A stretch of DNA of 64,000 nt from Syntrophomonas sp. (GTDB lineage Bacteria > Bacillota > Syntrophomonadia > Syntrophomonadales > Syntrophomonadaceae), in assembly GCA_016841425.1 (NCBI GenBank), contig JAENZE010000007.1, positions 124,001 through 188,000 of the forward strand. Direction: 5' to 3'. The translations under genes were made by a program, and so were the position numbers. Shown piece by piece: positions 39,851-48,450 of the stretch. Under the pieces are notes generated by a model. The model searched no databases, was not told the DNA's origin, and saw only the letters and a program-made list of their open reading frames with translations. The stretch's first letter is position 1. Every line of letters begins with the position of its first letter.

Positions 39851-40318
39851 ATGAAAGGTGTTGGCTTTTTAGGCCTTTTCAATGAACACGATAAGACCAG
39901 GGATGAAGGAGAAAAAGTAAACAAAAATGAAAGCAGCGAAGAGAGAAAATTAAGGCTGCGTAAAGAAGAACTTGATGTCGCTAAGAACAGGGTTGATATT
40001 GGCAAGGTAGAATTTGGTAAAGAAATCATTGAAGAACAGCAGATAATAAACGTTCCAATAGTACATGAAGAAGTCGTTGTTGAAAGAAGATCCATAAACG
40101 AGCCCAGTGATAGCCCTATCGGTGAAGGTGATGATGAACATTTCAGTCTTTCGGTAGGCGAAGATAGAATTGAAGTGGGCAAACACACTATTGTGACCGG
40201 TGAAGTATCAGCCCACAAACGTGAAGTCGAAGAGAATCAGGAGATCAAAGAGACTGTTAAACACGAAGAAGCGCGTATAAATAAAGATGGAGATGCCAAT
40301 ATCGTTGATGAAAACTAG
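39851..40318 (+). CDS. YsnF/AvaK-domain (DUF2382) stress protein
   Basis: A 155-residue acidic, charged protein. It contains the DUF2382 unit: RLRKEELDVAKNRVDIGKVE, then VPIVHEEVVVERR, and a second copy of the theme near IEVGKHTIVTGEVSAHKREVEE. No signal peptide or membrane segment. The domain is seen in general-stress proteins and in cyanobacterial AvaK; no enzyme activity is known. GGAGG lies just before the ATG. It is adjacent to a shorter paralogue. Confidence 0.88.
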   Translation: MKGVGFLGLFNEHDKTRDEGEKVNKNESSEERKLRLRKEELDVAKNRVDIGKVEFGKEIIEEQQIINVPIVHEEVVVERRSINEPSDSPIGEGDDEHFSLSVGEDRIEVGKHTIVTGEVSAHKREVEENQEIKETVKHEEARINKDGDANIVDEN

Positions 40319-40400
40319 CTTCATTAGAAATTAAGTTTTAAACGCCTCACCAATGAATATTGGAGAGGTGTTTTTTGGTTTACGTATAGGAGGATTACCA

Positions 40401-40784
40401 ATGACAAACGAATCGCTGGATAAAATTACTATTCCTATCAGAGAAGAAGAGATGGATGTAAAAAGGAAATGGGTGCAGACTGGCGAAATAAACTGTCATA
40501 AAGAGGTGTTAACTGAGGAAAGAACTATAAGCGTACCAGTAAAACGCGAAGAGTTGATAATTGAGAAAAAAATCATAGATGCAGATTCCCCGGACCAATC
40601 AACCCGCACTGAAATTACACGGATACCCCTTAGAGAAGAGCGGGTAGACATTAATAAATATACTTATGATCTCGAACAAGTGGAAGTATACAAGCAGGAA
40701 TTTAATGAAAATCAATTAGTAGATGCAATGTTAAAAAAGGATATACTTATTATAAAAACTTCCGGGGATGCAGATATAAACTAA
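40401..40784 (+). CDS. YsnF/AvaK-domain (DUF2382) protein, second copy
   Basis: A 127-residue paralogue of the gene upstream: ITIPIREEEMDVKRKWVQTG, VPVKREELIIEKK, then IPLREERVDINKYTYDLEQVE. ATG at 40401 follows AGGAGG at seven bases; an open frame 16 codons upstream has no ribosome site. Tandem duplication of a DUF2382 gene. Confidence 0.88.
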   Translation: MTNESLDKITIPIREEEMDVKRKWVQTGEINCHKEVLTEERTISVPVKREELIIEKKIIDADSPDQSTRTEITRIPLREERVDINKYTYDLEQVEVYKQEFNENQLVDAMLKKDILIIKTSGDADIN

Positions 40785-41415: not shown

Positions 41416-41550
41416 AAGTTCTCTATTTCTTTAAGCATTATGCATTAAGGCAACCAAATTTTTTATTTTGATATATAACGAATACCAGGATTCAAGTATA
41501 GAGAGTGAGAATTATAACTTCATAGACAAGCGAAAAAAGGTGTGAAGAAA

Positions 41551-42744
41551 ATGTCTAAAACCTCAGATAAGCTATTATTAATTAAGACGATTCTATCAAA
41601 TCCACAAATAGTTAAAGTAAATCCATTCATCAATATGTTTCTCATTAAATACATGAAAAAATTTAATATTGTAAATGTAGGAGGCCATCTGGTTCTTCAT
41701 TCACATTTACCGCCTGTTAACAGCCAGGCTTTTTCCAGATTTATTGATGAACATTTATTAGCTAAGACACAAGGGCCTACCCATGCCCAGGTTGGTATCA
41801 CCAATATCTGTCCACAGAACTGCACTTATTGCTATAACAAAAATAGAACCGGCAGAATTATGGACAAGAATATAATTAAAGGAGTAATAAAAGATCTAAA
41901 GGATATGGGAGTTATATGGCTTGGACTTACAGGTGGAGAACCGCTGCTAAACAAGGATATTGTAGAAATTGTTGATACTATCGGTGATAATTGTACGGTA
42001 AAACTATTCACAGGCGGATACAATCTTACCAGAGAATTGGCATCTGATTTGAAAAAGGCTGGATTGTTTTATGTCTCAATTAGCCTGGATCATTGGATAG
42101 AGGAAGAGCATGACAAAATTAGAAGATGCAAGGGGTCATTTAGAACAGCAATAGAGGCAATCGATATTTTTAATGAAATTGGCGGTATTCATATAGGAGT
42201 ATCAACGGTATTATCCCGAAGTATGTTTAATACCGGTCATATCGAAGAATTTGTAGAATTTATGATTAAAGCAAATGTTCATGAAGTGTGGTTAAGCGAA
42301 GTAAAACCAGCTATAAATCCCCTCTGGGATAAAAATATCATTATTACTGAAGAAGAACGCATTGAATTAATAAAATTACAGGATTGGTATAATAAGCAAG
42401 GCCAAATAACTATCAATTATTTGGGGCACTTTGAAAGCGGTGAGCATTTTGGATGTAATGCAGGTCATAAAATGGTGTATATAGATCCATTTGGAGAGGT
42501 TAGCCCTTGCGTATTTGCCCCTATTACATTTGGCAATGTAAATGATGAATCGGTTAAAATATTATTTGCAGAGATGAAAAAACATTTTCCGCCCAATAAT
42601 TGTTGTTTCGTAAATAAAAACTATAAACTCTTTGCCAGGCATTATAAAGATCAGCTGCCTATTGGGAAAGAAGATACTCTTAAAATGATGAACGAAGTTC
42701 ATTTTGGACAAATGCCGGAATTTTTTAAGTTATTCTACAAATAA
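41551..42744 (+). CDS. radical SAM protein with additional C-terminal cysteines
   Basis: A 397-residue radical SAM enzyme. The SAM-cluster motif is CPQNCTYCYNK (Cys-x3-Cys-x2-Cys), with GLTGGEPLL as the next strand motif. The C-terminal part has FGCNAGHKMVYIDPFGEVSPC followed by NNCCFVNKNYK, resembling a SPASM-like auxiliary cluster region. The N-terminal 85 residues before the motif are not a standard domain. It is the first of four tightly packed genes. ATG at 41551 is preferred to the GTG three codons upstream. The substrate is unknown. The neighbours do not include a small precursor peptide, so a peptide-modifying role is not supported. Confidence 0.9.
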   Translation: MSKTSDKLLLIKTILSNPQIVKVNPFINMFLIKYMKKFNIVNVGGHLVLHSHLPPVNSQAFSRFIDEHLLAKTQGPTHAQVGITNICPQNCTYCYNKNRTGRIMDKNIIKGVIKDLKDMGVIWLGLTGGEPLLNKDIVEIVDTIGDNCTVKLFTGGYNLTRELASDLKKAGLFYVSISLDHWIEEEHDKIRRCKGSFRTAIEAIDIFNEIGGIHIGVSTVLSRSMFNTGHIEEFVEFMIKANVHEVWLSEVKPAINPLWDKNIIITEEERIELIKLQDWYNKQGQITINYLGHFESGEHFGCNAGHKMVYIDPFGEVSPCVFAPITFGNVNDESVKILFAEMKKHFPPNNCCFVNKNYKLFARHYKDQLPIGKEDTLKMMNEVHFGQMPEFFKLFYK

Positions 42745-42769
42745 GAATTATTACGGGGAGTAAAGCTAT

Positions 42770-43174
42770 ATGAAATCATATAAGTTAATCAGCCTATCTC
42801 TGGCAGTTGTATTTGCCATGGTGGGATTGATATTCCTGTTTATGCCGAATGATGTATTAGGTTTTTTCAATTATGTTTCAAAGTATGTGGGAATGCCCCT
42901 AGCACCTATGCAGGGTATCAACTTTTATCTTATTCTGGCTGTAGGATACATGTACCTGGTAACTTTGCTGGCATATTTTATGTATCGCTATCCTGAAGAC
43001 AGAAGATTTCCATGGCTATTGGCGAATGCTAAACTAGCATCTTCCATCTTATCTTTTTATTTATTTTTGCTGCATCAGCCTTACTTGATATATATTACCA
43101 ATGGTGTTATTGATGGTTCTATTGGTATTCTTGTGGTGGTTATTTATTTAACTATGAAAAAGGTGCCCGCATGA
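42770..43174 (+). CDS. hypothetical membrane protein
   Basis: A 134-residue protein with four hydrophobic segments (about 7-27, 45-68, 82-100, 108-128) and a Tyr-rich C-terminal half. I recognise no family. The GGGGAG site precedes the ATG. Its last codon overlaps the next gene's ATG (ATGA), so the two are coupled. It lies between the radical SAM gene and the ATC hydrolase-like gene in the same operon. Confidence 0.75.
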   Translation: MKSYKLISLSLAVVFAMVGLIFLFMPNDVLGFFNYVSKYVGMPLAPMQGINFYLILAVGYMYLVTLLAYFMYRYPEDRRFPWLLANAKLASSILSFYLFLLHQPYLIYITNGVIDGSIGILVVVIYLTMKKVPA

Positions 43175-43722
43175 ATGTAGTATTAAGACTCCTGCAGTTA
43201 TACTTTCCAGGATTTATCAAAAAGCAAAAACTCGAACAGCTGTTTACTATTACTGCCCATGCTTTTGGGTGTGAGGCACCTTCAACCCAGGGACTCACAT
43301 TTGAGCAATGTCTGCAAAAATATGCCCTGTTTACCCAGCAGCAGACCGAAAGACACCTTAAAGATTCCTCTGACATTAATAATCTAAAAAAAAATTTATA
43401 CCAGAAGGCTTATCAATTAGGAAAGGAACTCCGAAAGGAATTTGGTATTACTACCTCTAAAGAATTTATCCTAATGAGCAAAATAATTTATAATATGCTG
43501 GGAATAGACTTTAATAGCAGCAGTTCACAAAATGAGATTATAATTAATCACTGCTTTTTCAGCCAGTATTATTCTCCAGAAATCTGTCAGGTAATCTCTT
43601 CATTGGATGAGGGGATAGCAGCAGGGCTTTCAGGCGGAGGTAATCTTTGCTTTCATCAAAGGATTACGGAAGGATATAACTGCTGCCGGGCAAATCTGGT
43701 CTTCAAGGAGGAACTGAAATGA
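43171..43722 (+). CDS. L-2-amino-thiazoline-4-carboxylic acid hydrolase-like protein
   Basis: A 183-residue soluble protein. The C-terminal third has a Cys/Asp/Gly pattern: NHCFFSQYYSPEICQVISSLDEG, here split as HCFFSQYYSPEICQV and ISSLDEGIAAGLSGG, ending LCFHQRITEGYNCC. This resembles the ATC hydrolase domain (PF14196), whose members cleave a cyclic thiazoline and are often found in gene sets with radical enzymes. The assignment is from pattern only. ATGA overlaps at both ends couple it to the membrane protein before it and the flavoenzyme after it. Confidence 0.6.
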   Translation: MNVVLRLLQLYFPGFIKKQKLEQLFTITAHAFGCEAPSTQGLTFEQCLQKYALFTQQQTERHLKDSSDINNLKKNLYQKAYQLGKELRKEFGITTSKEFILMSKIIYNMLGIDFNSSSSQNEIIINHCFFSQYYSPEICQVISSLDEGIAAGLSGGGNLCFHQRITEGYNCCRANLVFKEELK

Positions 43723-45017
43723 ACAAAGCTATTGTAGTAGGCAGCGGAGCGGGTGGTGCTACCGTCGCCAAAGAGCTGCAGGGAATATTTGACGTTACTG
43801 TTCTTGAAGCAGGAAGAGCTTTTTATCCTTTTTCTTATAATTTGTCCACACTGGGAAAACTGAAAAAGACCGGTTTGTTCTTTGATGAACAACTGATTCA
43901 GCTTTTATTTCCGACTATGAAAATCAGAAAAACTAAAGATAAAATGATTTTAGTTAACGGTATCGGACTGGGCGGAACAACTACTATCTCTACTGGAAAT
44001 GCACTGCGTATGGACCAAGATTTGAAAAACATGGGCATCAATTTGGAAGATGAATTTGCGGAGATATATAAGGAAATTCCTATTACCACAGAGCATCAAA
44101 AATACTGGAACAAAACTACCAACCGCTTGTTTGAAATATGTACCCAAATGAATTTGCACCCTCAACCGACACCCAAAATGGGAGTATATAATCGGTGCAT
44201 TAGATGCGGGAGATGCGTACTCGGATGTCCGCGAGATGTAAAATGGGACAGCAGGCAATTCCTGCAGATTGCTATTAACCAGGGTGCACATCTCCATACT
44301 GATTGTAAAGCGGAAAGAGTTATTATTGAAGACGGCAAGGCAACTGGTGTGATGGCCCGACACGGATGGCAAACCATTTTTTATCCGGCAGATCTGGTAA
44401 TTTTGGCTGCCGGCGGTCTGGGAACCCCTATAATTCTTCAAAATTCTGGTATAGAATGCGAAAGCAATCTGTTTGTAGATCCGGTTTTATGCGTAGCTGC
44501 TGAATGGAAAGAATGCCTTCAAAATCGGGAAATTTCCATGCCTTTTGTGGTTCAAAAGGAGCATTTTATTTTATCTCCATATTTTGATTTTCTAAGCTTC
44601 TTTTTTAACAGAGATTGGGGATTTCCTGCCTCGAATATTATAAGTTTGATGATAAAACTGGCTGATGTTAATTCTGGAAGCATTACACATAAAAAGATTG
44701 ATAAGCCTCTTACAGATATAGACAAGCTAAGATTAAATGAAGGGGTTGAAATTTGTACCGAAATACTGACCCAACTGGGAGCAAAAAGGAAGGATATTTT
44801 TCTGGGAACCATAAATGCCGGACATCCAGGAGGTATGATGCCGCTAACTGTGCAGGAGGCAGATACTCTACATAATAATAGACTTCCTGAAAATCTTTAC
44901 ATTGCTGACGCAACCCTGTTTCCTGCTTCTCTGGGAAATCCACCTATAATCACCATTGTAGCCATGGCAAAAAAGATAAGTAAACTGTGCGCTGAGTTGA
45001 TGGAGACGAACAAGTAA
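43719..45017 (+). CDS. GMC-type FAD oxidoreductase with a Cys cluster
   Basis: A 432-residue flavoenzyme. The FAD-binding fold starts AIVVGSGAGGATVAKEL with VTVLEAG. The middle has CIRCGRCVLGCPRD, four Cys in a ferredoxin-like spacing also seen in long-chain alcohol oxidase relatives; whether it binds iron-sulfur cannot be told here. The C-terminus has NAGHPGGMMPL and ATLFPASLGNPPI, the GMC signature near the active site. It probably oxidises an alcohol, aldehyde or reduced lipid and passes electrons onward. Last gene of the radical SAM operon, followed by a hairpin terminator. Confidence 0.85.
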   Translation: MNKAIVVGSGAGGATVAKELQGIFDVTVLEAGRAFYPFSYNLSTLGKLKKTGLFFDEQLIQLLFPTMKIRKTKDKMILVNGIGLGGTTTISTGNALRMDQDLKNMGINLEDEFAEIYKEIPITTEHQKYWNKTTNRLFEICTQMNLHPQPTPKMGVYNRCIRCGRCVLGCPRDVKWDSRQFLQIAINQGAHLHTDCKAERVIIEDGKATGVMARHGWQTIFYPADLVILAAGGLGTPIILQNSGIECESNLFVDPVLCVAAEWKECLQNREISMPFVVQKEHFILSPYFDFLSFFFNRDWGFPASNIISLMIKLADVNSGSITHKKIDKPLTDIDKLRLNEGVEICTEILTQLGAKRKDIFLGTINAGHPGGMMPLTVQEADTLHNNRLPENLYIADATLFPASLGNPPIITIVAMAKKISKLCAELMETNK

Positions 45018-45088: not shown

Positions 45089-45125
45089 AAAAAAACAGAA
45101 GGTCTGCTTTAGAAGCCGACCTTCT
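45089..45125. terminator. terminator between converging operons
   Basis: AGAAGGTC pairs with GACCTTCT around a 13-base loop. On the minus strand it is followed by CTGTTTTTTTG, ending the 2-hydroxyacyl-CoA dehydratase unit; on the plus strand it may also stop the radical SAM operon. Confidence 0.75.
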
Positions 45126-45151: not shown

Positions 45152-46393
45152 TTATTTGTTCTTAGCCTCCAGCATCTCAGCGAGAGCCTGCAGCTTCATA
45201 TTGTTTCTCTCTACGTTATAGAAGGTCTCATCAACCAGGTCACCTTCTATGATTGTCATAGGCGCACCCAGTTTTTTGTTTACGTAATCCGAAATATAGT
45301 GCATGCCGATAGACCCAGATTTACAGCCTATAGTATAAGCAAAGATACCGGCATCCAACTTAAAGTCTTTAAACATCTGTTCAGTGAACTTGGCTTTATA
45401 ATCTACTGAACGGCTGAAATAGGACAGAGCTGTATTGGCTGCCACACCTTCCAAAGGATCAAATGGATCGTTTCTATCAAATGCAAAAAGTTCGAAATAG
45501 CTGCTGATTACCAGGCACATTCCCAGGCTCTGGAGTTTTTCTGACAGTTCTCTTATAGCCACCCAGTAAGGGATACCATCCCAGTATAAGCGATATTTAA
45601 TGTCTGGCATGGAGACTATTCTATCAGCGATTCTTTGTTTTAACTCGGCGTTCATTAGTTCATAATGTTCTGCCGTCTCCGGTTTATGGCGCAGAACAAG
45701 ATTGGGGAAATTATGACCCATGATATCGAAAAAGGTAGCTGGCACCGGGACATTTTTACTCGTGTTGATCATCTCTCGGTAATTATCTCCGCTCCTTTTC
45801 GCATTGCCAGCTACTTCCTTAAATCGATCGTAATCAAATTTTTTACCGGTAAAGCCTTCTAATAATTTTATTAGATCCAGGCATTGATCTTTAACATGGT
45901 CAATTATTTCCCTCTCATCCACTCCCGAAAGGAGTACCGGGCAATCTATACTTACCATGGGGATTTTCCAGTAATAACTTAGATGTTCAAACCATTTTGT
46001 TATAAGGATACAAGTATTGTTAGTTACCAAAAGAAAATCCGGACGGGCCAGGGGTTCAAATATATCCTGTCCTTCCAGAACTCCGAGGGTTGAGCCCAGG
46101 CTATTGCGGCAGTAAGTACACAGATGGCGTTCATAACCATGCATCTCCGTAATTTCACAGTGAGCATGGGCAACATGTCGGGCGCCACAGGTGGCTGCGT
46201 ACGCCTCCGGATATTGAACACAAAAATCCATAGCCCATAATATTTCAGATGGTGACATGGTAGATACCCAGGCAACTGGCTGTGCCCTGGTTTCTTCTAA
46301 TTCACGAGCACCATTATAATGTTGATTAATCAATTTTCCGAGGCGTTTCTGACTATCCAGTCTTGGACTGACTTTCCATTCTATTTCTCCCAT
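45152..46393 (-). CDS. 2-hydroxyacyl-CoA dehydratase subunit (HgdB/FldB/BcrB family)
   Basis: A 413-residue subunit of the 2-hydroxyacyl-CoA dehydratase/benzoyl-CoA reductase superfamily. VAWVSTMSPSEILWAMDF is the family-typical N-terminal strand and helix, and YERHLCTYCRNSLG carries two of the Cys that bind the 4Fe-4S cluster. It pairs with the 383-residue subunit and is switched on by the activase gene between them. ATG after AGGAGGCAAGAGG. These enzymes remove water from R-2-hydroxyacyl-CoA by a one-electron ketyl radical, and are very oxygen-sensitive. Substrate (2-hydroxyglutaryl, phenyllactyl, lactyl and others) unknown. A separate DUF2229-like or BcrB/C role is less likely because only two subunits and one activase are present. 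Confidence 0.88.
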   Translation of the reverse strand: MGEIEWKVSPRLDSQKRLGKLINQHYNGARELEETRAQPVAWVSTMSPSEILWAMDFCVQYPEAYAATCGARHVAHAHCEITEMHGYERHLCTYCRNSLGSTLGVLEGQDIFEPLARPDFLLVTNNTCILITKWFEHLSYYWKIPMVSIDCPVLLSGVDEREIIDHVKDQCLDLIKLLEGFTGKKFDYDRFKEVAGNAKRSGDNYREMINTSKNVPVPATFFDIMGHNFPNLVLRHKPETAEHYELMNAELKQRIADRIVSMPDIKYRLYWDGIPYWVAIRELSEKLQSLGMCLVISSYFELFAFDRNDPFDPLEGVAANTALSYFSRSVDYKAKFTEQMFKDFKLDAGIFAYTIGCKSGSIGMHYISDYVNKKLGAPMTIIEGDLVDETFYNVERNNMKLQALAEMLEAKNK

Positions 46394-46498
46394 TCCTCTT
46401 GCCTCCTTTAATTAGAACATCCCAACAAATTTAAACTGCTTATCTTTCCACTTACACAGGGTATATATTTAACGGAGTTTCATCTAACAACCCCATCG

Positions 46499-47275
46499 CT
46501 AATTAACCTTCCTGGCCAGAATAGCAGCACCCAAGGCCGTTACGATCTGAGGGTTTTCCGGCACCATTACCATACGCCCTGTCATCCGCTCCAATAATTT
46601 TACTATGGCGATATTTCTTGCTACTCCTCCGGTTAATACTATCTCTGCCTTCGGTTCAGGATAAACCGAGTTAATTAATCCATAAATTCTGCTGCCTATG
46701 GATTCATGAAGTGCTGCCGCAATATCTTCCTTCTCTGTTTTTCTGGCTATCAGAGATACTATTTCGCTCTGAGCAAAGACAGTACAGGTATTGCTTATAG
46801 TGATTTTATTTTTCGATTCCAACGAAGTCTTACCCAGTTCCTCCACATCGACCCTCAGGGTCTGAGCAGCAACTTCCAGAAATTTTCCGGTTCCGGCTGC
46901 GCATTTATCATTCATAGCAAACTGCCGTACTCTGCCCTTTTTATCCATTTTTATTGCCTTGCTGTCCTGTCCACCTATGTCTACCACCAAGGTTGCGTTG
47001 GGAAATAAATGGTGAACACCTGCAGCATTACATGTGATCTCAGTAATTGTCTGGCTGCTGAAGGGAATACTGATTCTTCCGTACCCAGTTGATACAATCC
47101 CAGCAATATCCTCAAAAGATAAATTAGCCTGGGCCAGCGACTCCCCAAGCACCTGTTCAGTTGCTTCAGGAATATCGATCCCCGTCGCTTGTACCGAATA
47201 TGAATAAATACCGTCTTTTCCTAAAAGGACCGCCTTGGTAGTCGTGGACCCTACATCTATTCCTGCTGTAATCAT
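46499..47275 (-). CDS. 2-hydroxyacyl-CoA dehydratase activase (HgdC-like ATPase)
   Basis: A 258-residue archerase of the ASKHA fold. Starts ITAGIDVGSTTTKAVLL (phosphate-1), with VVDIGGQDSKAI as phosphate-2, NDKCAAGTGKFLE with the cluster-binding Cys, and NTCTVFAQSEIV with the second. VLTGGVARN is the adenosine motif. It binds a 4Fe-4S cluster at the dimer interface and drives one electron into the dehydratase with ATP. ATG at 47275 follows GGGGTGATGG; an ATG nine codons earlier overlaps the upstream gene and is also possible. It is placed between the two dehydratase subunit genes. Confidence 0.93.
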   Translation of the reverse strand: MITAGIDVGSTTTKAVLLGKDGIYSYSVQATGIDIPEATEQVLGESLAQANLSFEDIAGIVSTGYGRISIPFSSQTITEITCNAAGVHHLFPNATLVVDIGGQDSKAIKMDKKGRVRQFAMNDKCAAGTGKFLEVAAQTLRVDVEELGKTSLESKNKITISNTCTVFAQSEIVSLIARKTEKEDIAAALHESIGSRIYGLINSVYPEPKAEIVLTGGVARNIAIVKLLERMTGRMVMVPENPQIVTALGAAILARKVN

Positions 47276-47298
47276 TCCATCACCCCGCATTCCATGCC

Positions 47299-48450
47299 TC
47301 ATAATGTTTCTACAAATGCTTGAACTCTGGTTCTAACTGCTTCCATTGATCCGGAACCCTTCTCTATGAATAAAGCCAGGAAGGGAATATTCTCTTCCTT
47401 CAGCCTTTCCCTCAATAGAACAAATTCCATATCGAAGGGATCACAGTACATAGCTCTTAAAATCACTATTCCTGCTGCCTGACCCTTCTTTAGCATATCA
47501 ATCGTATAATCTGCGTAAGGTGAATATTTATCACTATCACCCCTCCAGCAATCTACATAATGATAAGTTGTACATGGAATCATATTCATATAATAATCAG
47601 CAAAAGATTCGATAGGATCTCCATCAGGATTCACATCCACCGCATAGTATCTGCCGCCGGTTATAAAATCATCATCTATCAATGATAATCCCTCATTTTC
47701 GATCAGGTTTAGAAGTCCCTCATCCGGAGCATCACACAGATGACCGATGATAACCATCTTAAATCTTTGATCCTCGGGTGTTAGAACGTTATCGATCCTG
47801 GACAACAATTCCCTCAATAATTGGTTATGTTCCTCTCGGGGTATAAGCATGCTGGAGGTCACCGTGCAAACCATATCACTGGCACTTATAATACCAGGGC
47901 GCTCTCTTCTAATGTCATTCAATTTCCGCATCATATATCGGGACTCGTTGTATATGCCGATGCTATTACGGATAGCTTCAATAGTTATCTCGGTCCCCGT
48001 GAAGCTTTCTAAATGTGATATCAACCTCTTCAATTCACTCGTAAGAAACGGCCGGTTTGTGTTATCCAGCCTATAGGGGCGCCACATCTCATGGAAGAAA
48101 GGAAATGGATGATCCAGCTGCCACACCTCCAGGAAAAACCTGACCTGGTCACATACATGGAGGGCTGCTACCCCATCAAGAAAGTCGTATTTACCCTTCA
48201 GGAGACTGTCAAACGTACTGCGAACCTGATGGCAGGCATTATTCATCAGATGATGTTCACCCATGGTAATTGGTTCGTCACTTCCATACAGAGTAACCGG
48301 CAGTACCCCGGCAGCATGCAGAATCTCCTCCGGGAAATACATGGGGATACAGCCAATGACTTTTCTATTGGGTTCAGCATCTTTCCATTCTACTGCTCTA
48401 TCGTATGGCTGCATACAAAACTCCTTAAACTTGTCCAGTATTTTCTCCAC
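47299..48450 (-). CDS. 2-hydroxyacyl-CoA dehydratase subunit (HgdA/FldC-type)
   Basis: A 383-residue second subunit. RKVIGCIPMYFPEEILHAAG is the conserved start of the family, and the Cys-containing CHQVRSTFDSLLKG and HVCDQVRFFLEVW regions follow the metal-binding layout. It is the first gene of the three-gene unit; the activase start overlaps or closely follows its stop. GTG after AGGAGGG. Together the unit forms a complete 2-hydroxyacyl-CoA dehydratase system. No CoA-transferase or 2-hydroxyacid dehydrogenase gene lies next to it, so the substrate cannot be guessed from neighbours. Confidence 0.87.
   Translation of the reverse strand: MEKILDKFKEFCMQPYDRAVEWKDAEPNRKVIGCIPMYFPEEILHAAGVLPVTLYGSDEPITMGEHHLMNNACHQVRSTFDSLLKGKYDFLDGVAALHVCDQVRFFLEVWQLDHPFPFFHEMWRPYRLDNTNRPFLTSELKRLISHLESFTGTEITIEAIRNSIGIYNESRYMMRKLNDIRRERPGIISASDMVCTVTSSMLIPREEHNQLLRELLSRIDNVLTPEDQRFKMVIIGHLCDAPDEGLLNLIENEGLSLIDDDFITGGRYYAVDVNPDGDPIESFADYYMNMIPCTTYHYVDCWRGDSDKYSPYADYTIDMLKKGQAAGIVILRAMYCDPFDMEFVLLRERLKEENIPFLALFIEKGSGSMEAVRTRVQAFVETL

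Follow-up and report, generated by a model that had tools for sequence, protein, structure and literature searches.

A set of four genes in Syntrophomonas sp., encoding a radical SAM enzyme, a membrane protein, a 183-residue protein and a GMC flavoprotein, is kept in six or more phyla, in bacteria that avoid oxygen. We tentatively read this set, at somewhat less than even confidence, as a mobile anaerobic cassette in which a carrier of the V4R fold would hold a hydrophobic molecule for membrane-associated radical and dehydrogenase chemistry.

Layout of the operon

An ORF search of the window, the whole 64,000-nt stretch of DNA that was analysed, gave four plus-strand ORFs in the order radical SAM protein, four-TM protein, 183-residue protein and GMC protein. 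The features are as follows:

41551..42744, + strand: radical SAM/SPASM protein, 397 aa (ORF, Pfam, conserved Cys/His)
42770..43174, + strand: four-TM protein, 134 aa, outside any named family (ORF, structure model)
43171..43722, + strand: predicted TRAPPC3/V4R-fold protein, 183 aa (fold match; invariant Cys codons 43552-43686)
43719..45017, + strand: GMC flavoprotein dehydrogenase, 432 aa, predicted 4Fe-4S (Pfam, Cys motif, H369/N407)
44196..44228, + strand: C160-C170 motif of the GMC protein, CIRCGRCVLGC, predicted 4Fe-4S ligand set (alignment)

The radical SAM ORF has an ATG start at 41551, its longest version beginning with a GTG at 41542. The radical SAM and membrane-protein genes are separated by 25 nt, and 4-nt ATGA overlaps are found at the junctions of the membrane protein with the 183-residue protein and of the latter with the GMC protein. 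ORF coordinates and sequence thus agree with the layout given in the initial annotation, and its claim that the genes act together is borne out by the same four-gene order across phyla, a recurrence that argues against chance. The operon contained no Rfam elements, and promoter- and terminator-like sites were no commoner than the shuffle level. No multiheme cytochrome c gene is present in the operon, which has no gene beyond the four.

Distribution and mobility of the cassette

Another 18 genomes or contigs (two of them incomplete) have the four genes in this order; they are labelled Bacillota, Calditrichota, KSB1, Bacteroidota, Kryptoniota and Atribacterota, and the set is therefore not unique to this genome. 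The nearest relatives of the window lack it. None of the 53 further genomes in the family, four of them from the same genus, has the 183-residue protein; the radical SAM protein had an orthologue in none of the same-genus genomes, and no real orthologue of the GMC protein was found in the class.

Within an evenly drawn sample of 398 genomes of the phylum, the 183-residue protein turned up in three further ones, members of a single genus of another family; a search across the class to which that genus belongs added a fourth carrier. These four additional carriers all have the genes for the radical SAM and membrane proteins as well, in the order seen here. The 183-residue protein and the four-TM protein (strong matches) occur in exactly the same four of the 398 genomes, and these same four are the only ones in which the GMC profile exceeds 700 bits. 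The next-best GMC match in the sample, G269, scored 293 bits and has unrelated neighbours; the other three genes were not found on the short contigs of this and a second distant GMC relative (G437). A plasmid collection yielded one distant GMC protein in Photobacterium, with a similar Cys motif and the other three genes absent, and two weak Rhizobium matches.

A pattern scan of genome contigs from the window protein alone returned nothing, while an alignment-based scan gave 15 loci, 14 of them with the cassette in order (one, L030, breaks off inside the GMC gene, L026 has a shortened ORF for the 183-residue protein, and L028 contains masked bases). The fifteenth, L025, from a betaproteobacterial metagenome-assembled genome (MAG), has the genes for the 183-residue and GMC proteins behind a different upstream gene. 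The true spread is probably wider, since the scan relied on short patterns.

Flanking genes are shared between close relatives only, and no neighbouring gene recurs beyond them. The GC content of the operon is 37.4%, at the low end of the range for equal-length windows (42.4 ± 2.2%). In a tree of the GMC proteins, the window sequence forms a pair with that of a Clostridia MAG (99/99). A Calditrichales-labelled locus falls among Bacillota, a grouping that is only moderately supported. The unconserved flanks, the absence from the same genus and the AT-rich operon therefore argue for a horizontally moving, self-contained unit, and the history of the cassette fits horizontal transfer of such a unit. 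A neighbouring mug-type glycosylase gene is absent from the same-genus genomes too, so the region around the cassette may itself be accessory. The HGD/activator genes at 45152-48450 are convergent to the cassette and do not accompany the operon elsewhere, so that no nearby gene of a known pathway explains the set.

The 183-residue protein

The initial annotation had called this protein ATC-hydrolase-like and had suggested comparing its predicted structure with ATC hydrolase. The ATC_hydrolase family (PF14196) is indeed the only recurring Pfam family, weakly so in 12 of 16 members (best E 0.00087), and may for that reason be a distant cousin. On the window protein, however, the similarity, which covers residues 73-173, has an E-value of 0.0032 and reaches 18.7 bits, missing the cut-off of 28.1.

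The structure model, drawn from 16 sequences, is confident (pLDDT 92) and gave instead a ligand-binding fold of the TRAPPC3/V4R type. A fold search returned 22 PDB matches at E<=0.001, mainly TRAPPC3/Bet3, with TM-scores of about 0.5-0.57; the top match was TRAPPC3 with covalent palmitate (E 1e-5), and after TRAPPC3/Bet3 came a V4R protein and then the phenol sensors PoxR and DmpR. The cavities of TRAPPC3/V4R proteins hold hydrophobic ligands, palmitate or phenols. No Pfam V4R or TRAPP model matched any of the 16 members at E<=1. The likeness to V4R/TRAPPC3 proteins (Bet3, Thor-TRAPPC3, the PoxR/DmpR sensory domain, MJ1460) thus lies in predicted fold and Cys placement; there is no significant sequence match, and the protein is encoded in an enzyme operon, whereas its likenesses serve in trafficking or sensing.

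Four Cys residues are invariant: C128, C139, C171 and C172. In the model they map to the end of strand 122-128, to helix 136-154 and to strand 172-177. In Thor-TRAPPC3, Zn is bound by four Cys and tethers the beta-sheet to helix D (PMC10933270), and the four invariant Cys here are predicted to sit on the same secondary-structure elements as this tether. The zinc ligands of DmpR are Cys151, Glu172, Cys177 and Cys185 (PMC7264223). The four Cys are therefore likely to form a zinc site in the predicted structure. Because the modelled fold is that of TRAPPC3/V4R proteins, with their hydrophobic-ligand cavities and zinc-type Cys, a role as carrier or ligand-binding protein appears more likely than one as ATC hydrolase.

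The radical SAM protein

Both Radical_SAM (6.5e-24, 85.4 bits) and SPASM (27.1 bits against a cut-off of 21.5) match this protein in Pfam. The cluster motif is C87xxxC91xxC94 (codons 41809-41832), its Cys kept in 15 of 15 sequences. Among the auxiliary Cys, C302, C320 and C352 alone are invariant (codons 42454-42606), fewer than the full two-cluster set of a complete SPASM domain, and the protein therefore probably carries one auxiliary cluster. The N-terminus is His-rich and family-specific, with invariant H50, H52, H68 and H78 and an HSHLPPxNS segment. NCBIfam radical SAM matches were all far below cut-off, and a search for a defence role found nothing beyond generic viperin-type matches of this protein. 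A PDB profile search placed SkfB at the top, with MoaA and PqqE also among the solved relatives. These relatives do not fix the substrate; a protein substrate is possible, since SkfB acts on a peptide.

The GMC flavoprotein and the four-TM protein

The GMC protein matches GMC_oxred_N in Pfam (3.6e-22, 79.7 bits). A His/Asn pair is the canonical catalytic pair of the GMC superfamily; here H369 is invariant and N407 is found in the operon members that cover its position. The initial annotation had taken CIRCGRCVLGCP as a sign of an anaerobic electron path rather than of oxygen as acceptor. We confirm this sequence in the protein; its four Cys, C160, C163, C166 and C170, are kept in all 16 homologues compared and follow a CxxCxxCxxxC pattern of ferredoxin-like spacing. 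C160, C166 and C170 coincide with Cys of the FAD-dependent glucose dehydrogenase (FAD-GDH) of Burkholderia (6a2u), a 3Fe-4S enzyme (PMC9727119), and with Cys of GMC dehydrogenases of Bacillota. Since C163 adds a fourth ligand, 4Fe-4S is the natural prediction. The protein is thus likely, judging by this alignment of an invariant Cys cluster with Fe-S GMC enzymes, to have a 4Fe-4S cluster and an acceptor other than oxygen, in line with the earlier suggestion.

The known Fe-S GMC complexes (FAD-GDH 6a2u and the fructose and 2-ketogluconate dehydrogenases) resemble the cassette in the Fe-S cluster beside FAD as first acceptor, which for the cassette is predicted, in the three Cys positions and in a small-protein gene beside the GMC gene. 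The cassette differs in its fourth Cys, in a V4R-fold protein that replaces the Gluconate_2-dh3-type subunit (the 183-residue protein does not match this small subunit, at an hhalign probability of 0.2%), in lacking a cytochrome c gene and in the added genes for the radical SAM protein and a family-specific four-TM protein.

Many Bacillota have trios of a small membrane protein, a Gluconate_2-dh3 protein and a GMC protein (L067-L069). Their likeness to the cassette consists of the order membrane protein, protein of about 200 residues, GMC protein, of tight junctions and of a C-x5-C-x3-C pattern in the GMC protein; unlike the cassette, they have no radical SAM gene. We considered whether the four-TM and V4R-fold proteins are homologous to the small proteins of these trios and rejected this, there being no profile similarity, so the trio serves as an analogy only, one that would suggest a GMC dehydrogenase attached to the membrane and assisted by a small partner protein.

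The four-TM protein is modelled confidently as a helical bundle (pLDDT 90) with helices at 2-24/26-40, 50-73, 79-101 and 106-128. In Pfam the window protein matches nothing and its homologues show no consistent family; in a fold search there was no match below E 0.5, and no solved relative was found. In the sampled genomes it was found only with the cassette.

Substrate and alternative explanations

Clues to the substrate come from genes near some copies. In L025 the genes for the 183-residue and GMC proteins lie 3 nt behind a gene in which a thioester reductase is fused to a fatty-acid-type AMP ligase. This is the chemistry of carboxylic-acid reductases, which make aldehydes or alcohols, and it may be pointing to acyl-derived alcohols; L025 is a single MAG contig that ends inside the GMC gene, and it may have been joined in assembly. 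In L024 and L026 the cassette has a TonB-dependent receptor gene that overlaps or directly adjoins it, a CrtI-like flavoprotein gene precedes it in L020 and another lies 2.6 kb downstream in L027, and TetR, MmyB-type and ABC genes are near some copies. All of these neighbours are compatible with a lipophilic compound, and none is conclusive. The initial annotation had preferred a small-molecule or lipid modification to a peptide one; the preference fits the V4R fold, but the radical SAM enzyme may still modify a protein.

Protein modification would make the cassette a membrane-bound alcohol dehydrogenase plus its maturase, with the radical SAM enzyme modifying either the four-Cys protein or the GMC protein. 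There is precedent in QhpD, which modifies the small subunit of quinohemoprotein amine dehydrogenase post-translationally. Peptides are frequent substrates of SPASM-type radical SAM enzymes, as the SkfB match recalls, the gene for the 183-residue protein with its invariant Cys overlaps the GMC gene, and the order membrane protein, small subunit, GMC is also that of ordinary GMC dehydrogenases of Bacillota. However, a V4R/TRAPPC3 zinc site accounts for the four Cys, the V4R-GMC pair of L025 is directly preceded by a different enzyme (on a contig that ends inside the GMC gene), and neither the small protein nor the membrane protein of the ordinary trio has profile similarity to those of the cassette. 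We consider maturation unlikely, although it is the strongest of the alternatives.

A more improbable reading is that the ligand of the V4R-fold protein is no fatty lipid but a modified tetrapyrrole, a quinone or a cofactor of similar kind, and that the cassette converts this ligand. Bilin-linked gene clusters do combine V4R genes with an Fe-S protein (PMC10151467), and NirJ/AhbD-type heme enzymes are among the many radical SAM models with similarly weak scores; but all of those models are far below cut-off, and tetrapyrrole or quinone genes do not recur beside the cassette.

A ribosomal-peptide redox cofactor like mycofactocin, with its precursor gene elsewhere in the genome, seems very improbable. 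Mycofactocin clusters likewise combine a radical SAM/SPASM protein with a GMC oxidoreductase (MftC and MftG), and the best NCBIfam GMC scores came from MftG models, yet MftC reached 77.4 of 265 bits and MftG 47.9 of 400. No short ORF within 900 bp of the cassette, of MftA type or otherwise, is conserved except between close relatives, as expected from the earlier remark that the operon has no precursor peptide gene, and no precursor-recognition protein was seen. Least probable of all is that a genuine ATC hydrolase acts here on thiazoline or cysteine-derived compounds, for which the weakly recurring PF14196 matches speak and against which stand the sub-threshold score, the V4R fold and the fact that thiazoline and cysteine genes do not recur nearby.

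Discussion

As predictions, the fold and the cluster motif have good support; the chemical role is what we infer. In the preferred reading, a hydrophobic molecule would be held in the cavity of the V4R-fold protein, which a Zn(Cys)4 tether would close according to the model. The radical SAM enzyme may attack an unactivated position of the carrier-held substrate, and the GMC enzyme may oxidise an alcohol of the substrate to a carbonyl. Electrons would pass from FAD to the 4Fe-4S cluster and from there to ferredoxin or an acceptor in the membrane instead of O2. The four-TM protein would anchor the complex at the membrane, and the outcome would be a lipid in modified form or some other lipophilic metabolite.

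The initial annotation knew of no described pathway with this set, and among the open-licence literature that we searched no paper describes the gene set or such a pathway. Conservation in anaerobes of at least six phyla, with absence in the nearest relatives, indicates a selectable function that the literature searched does not name. It is possible, though doubtful, that a radical SAM enzyme, a V4R-fold carrier and an Fe-S GMC enzyme together constitute an undescribed mobile anaerobic pathway whose product would be a lipid or lipophilic redox cofactor of a new class. The best-known acceptors in alcohol oxidation by GMC enzymes are O2 and cytochrome c. The cassette suggests that it may also proceed without oxygen, by way of a 4Fe-4S cluster, and it places the predicted TRAPPC3/V4R ligand-binding fold in an enzyme operon.

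Convergent operon and intergenic hairpin

A second operon converges on the cassette from the opposite strand, and a hairpin lies between the two:

Window 45152-48450, minus strand: 2-hydroxyacyl-CoA dehydratase/benzoyl-CoA-reductase-like pair and activator ATPase
Window 45097-45125: hairpin AGAAGGTC...GACCTTCT and a minus-strand T-run

The hairpin is likely to be the terminator of the dehydratase operon. It was not picked up by the terminator scan, probably owing to its loop length. Distant paralogues of the activator ATPase were found in every same-genus genome, with a top identity of 48%, and none of these genomes carried a close orthologue. Upstream of the cassette, window 39851-40784 holds two neighbouring ORFs, apparently related as judged by eye; the second strongly matches DUF2382.

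Related loci in other genomes

The following genes were located elsewhere:

L067:6264-8909, L068:2269-4951 and L069:1377-4075: small membrane protein, Gluconate_2-dh3 and GMC trio, common in Bacillota
L065:2495-3784: GMC relative
L025:996-3953: 985-aa thioester reductase and AMP ligase fusion, betaproteobacterial MAG
L024:3325-5814 and L026:3655-5862: TonB-dependent receptor, Bacteroidota and Kryptoniota

The trio GMC protein carries a C-x5-C-x3-C motif, and its small membrane protein partner is unnamed and has no Pfam family. The L065 protein has the same four-Cys motif as the cassette GMC protein; its gene adjoins PAP2 phosphatase and PEP-utilising enzyme genes, with a putative serine recombinase gene immediately before it. 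The L025 fusion gene, directly 5′ of the V4R-fold and GMC genes, encodes the thioester reductase domain ahead of the AMP ligase domain, the opposite of the arrangement in carboxylic acid reductases. The TonB-dependent receptor gene overlaps or abuts the cassette in L024 and L026, which suggests that an external compound is taken up.
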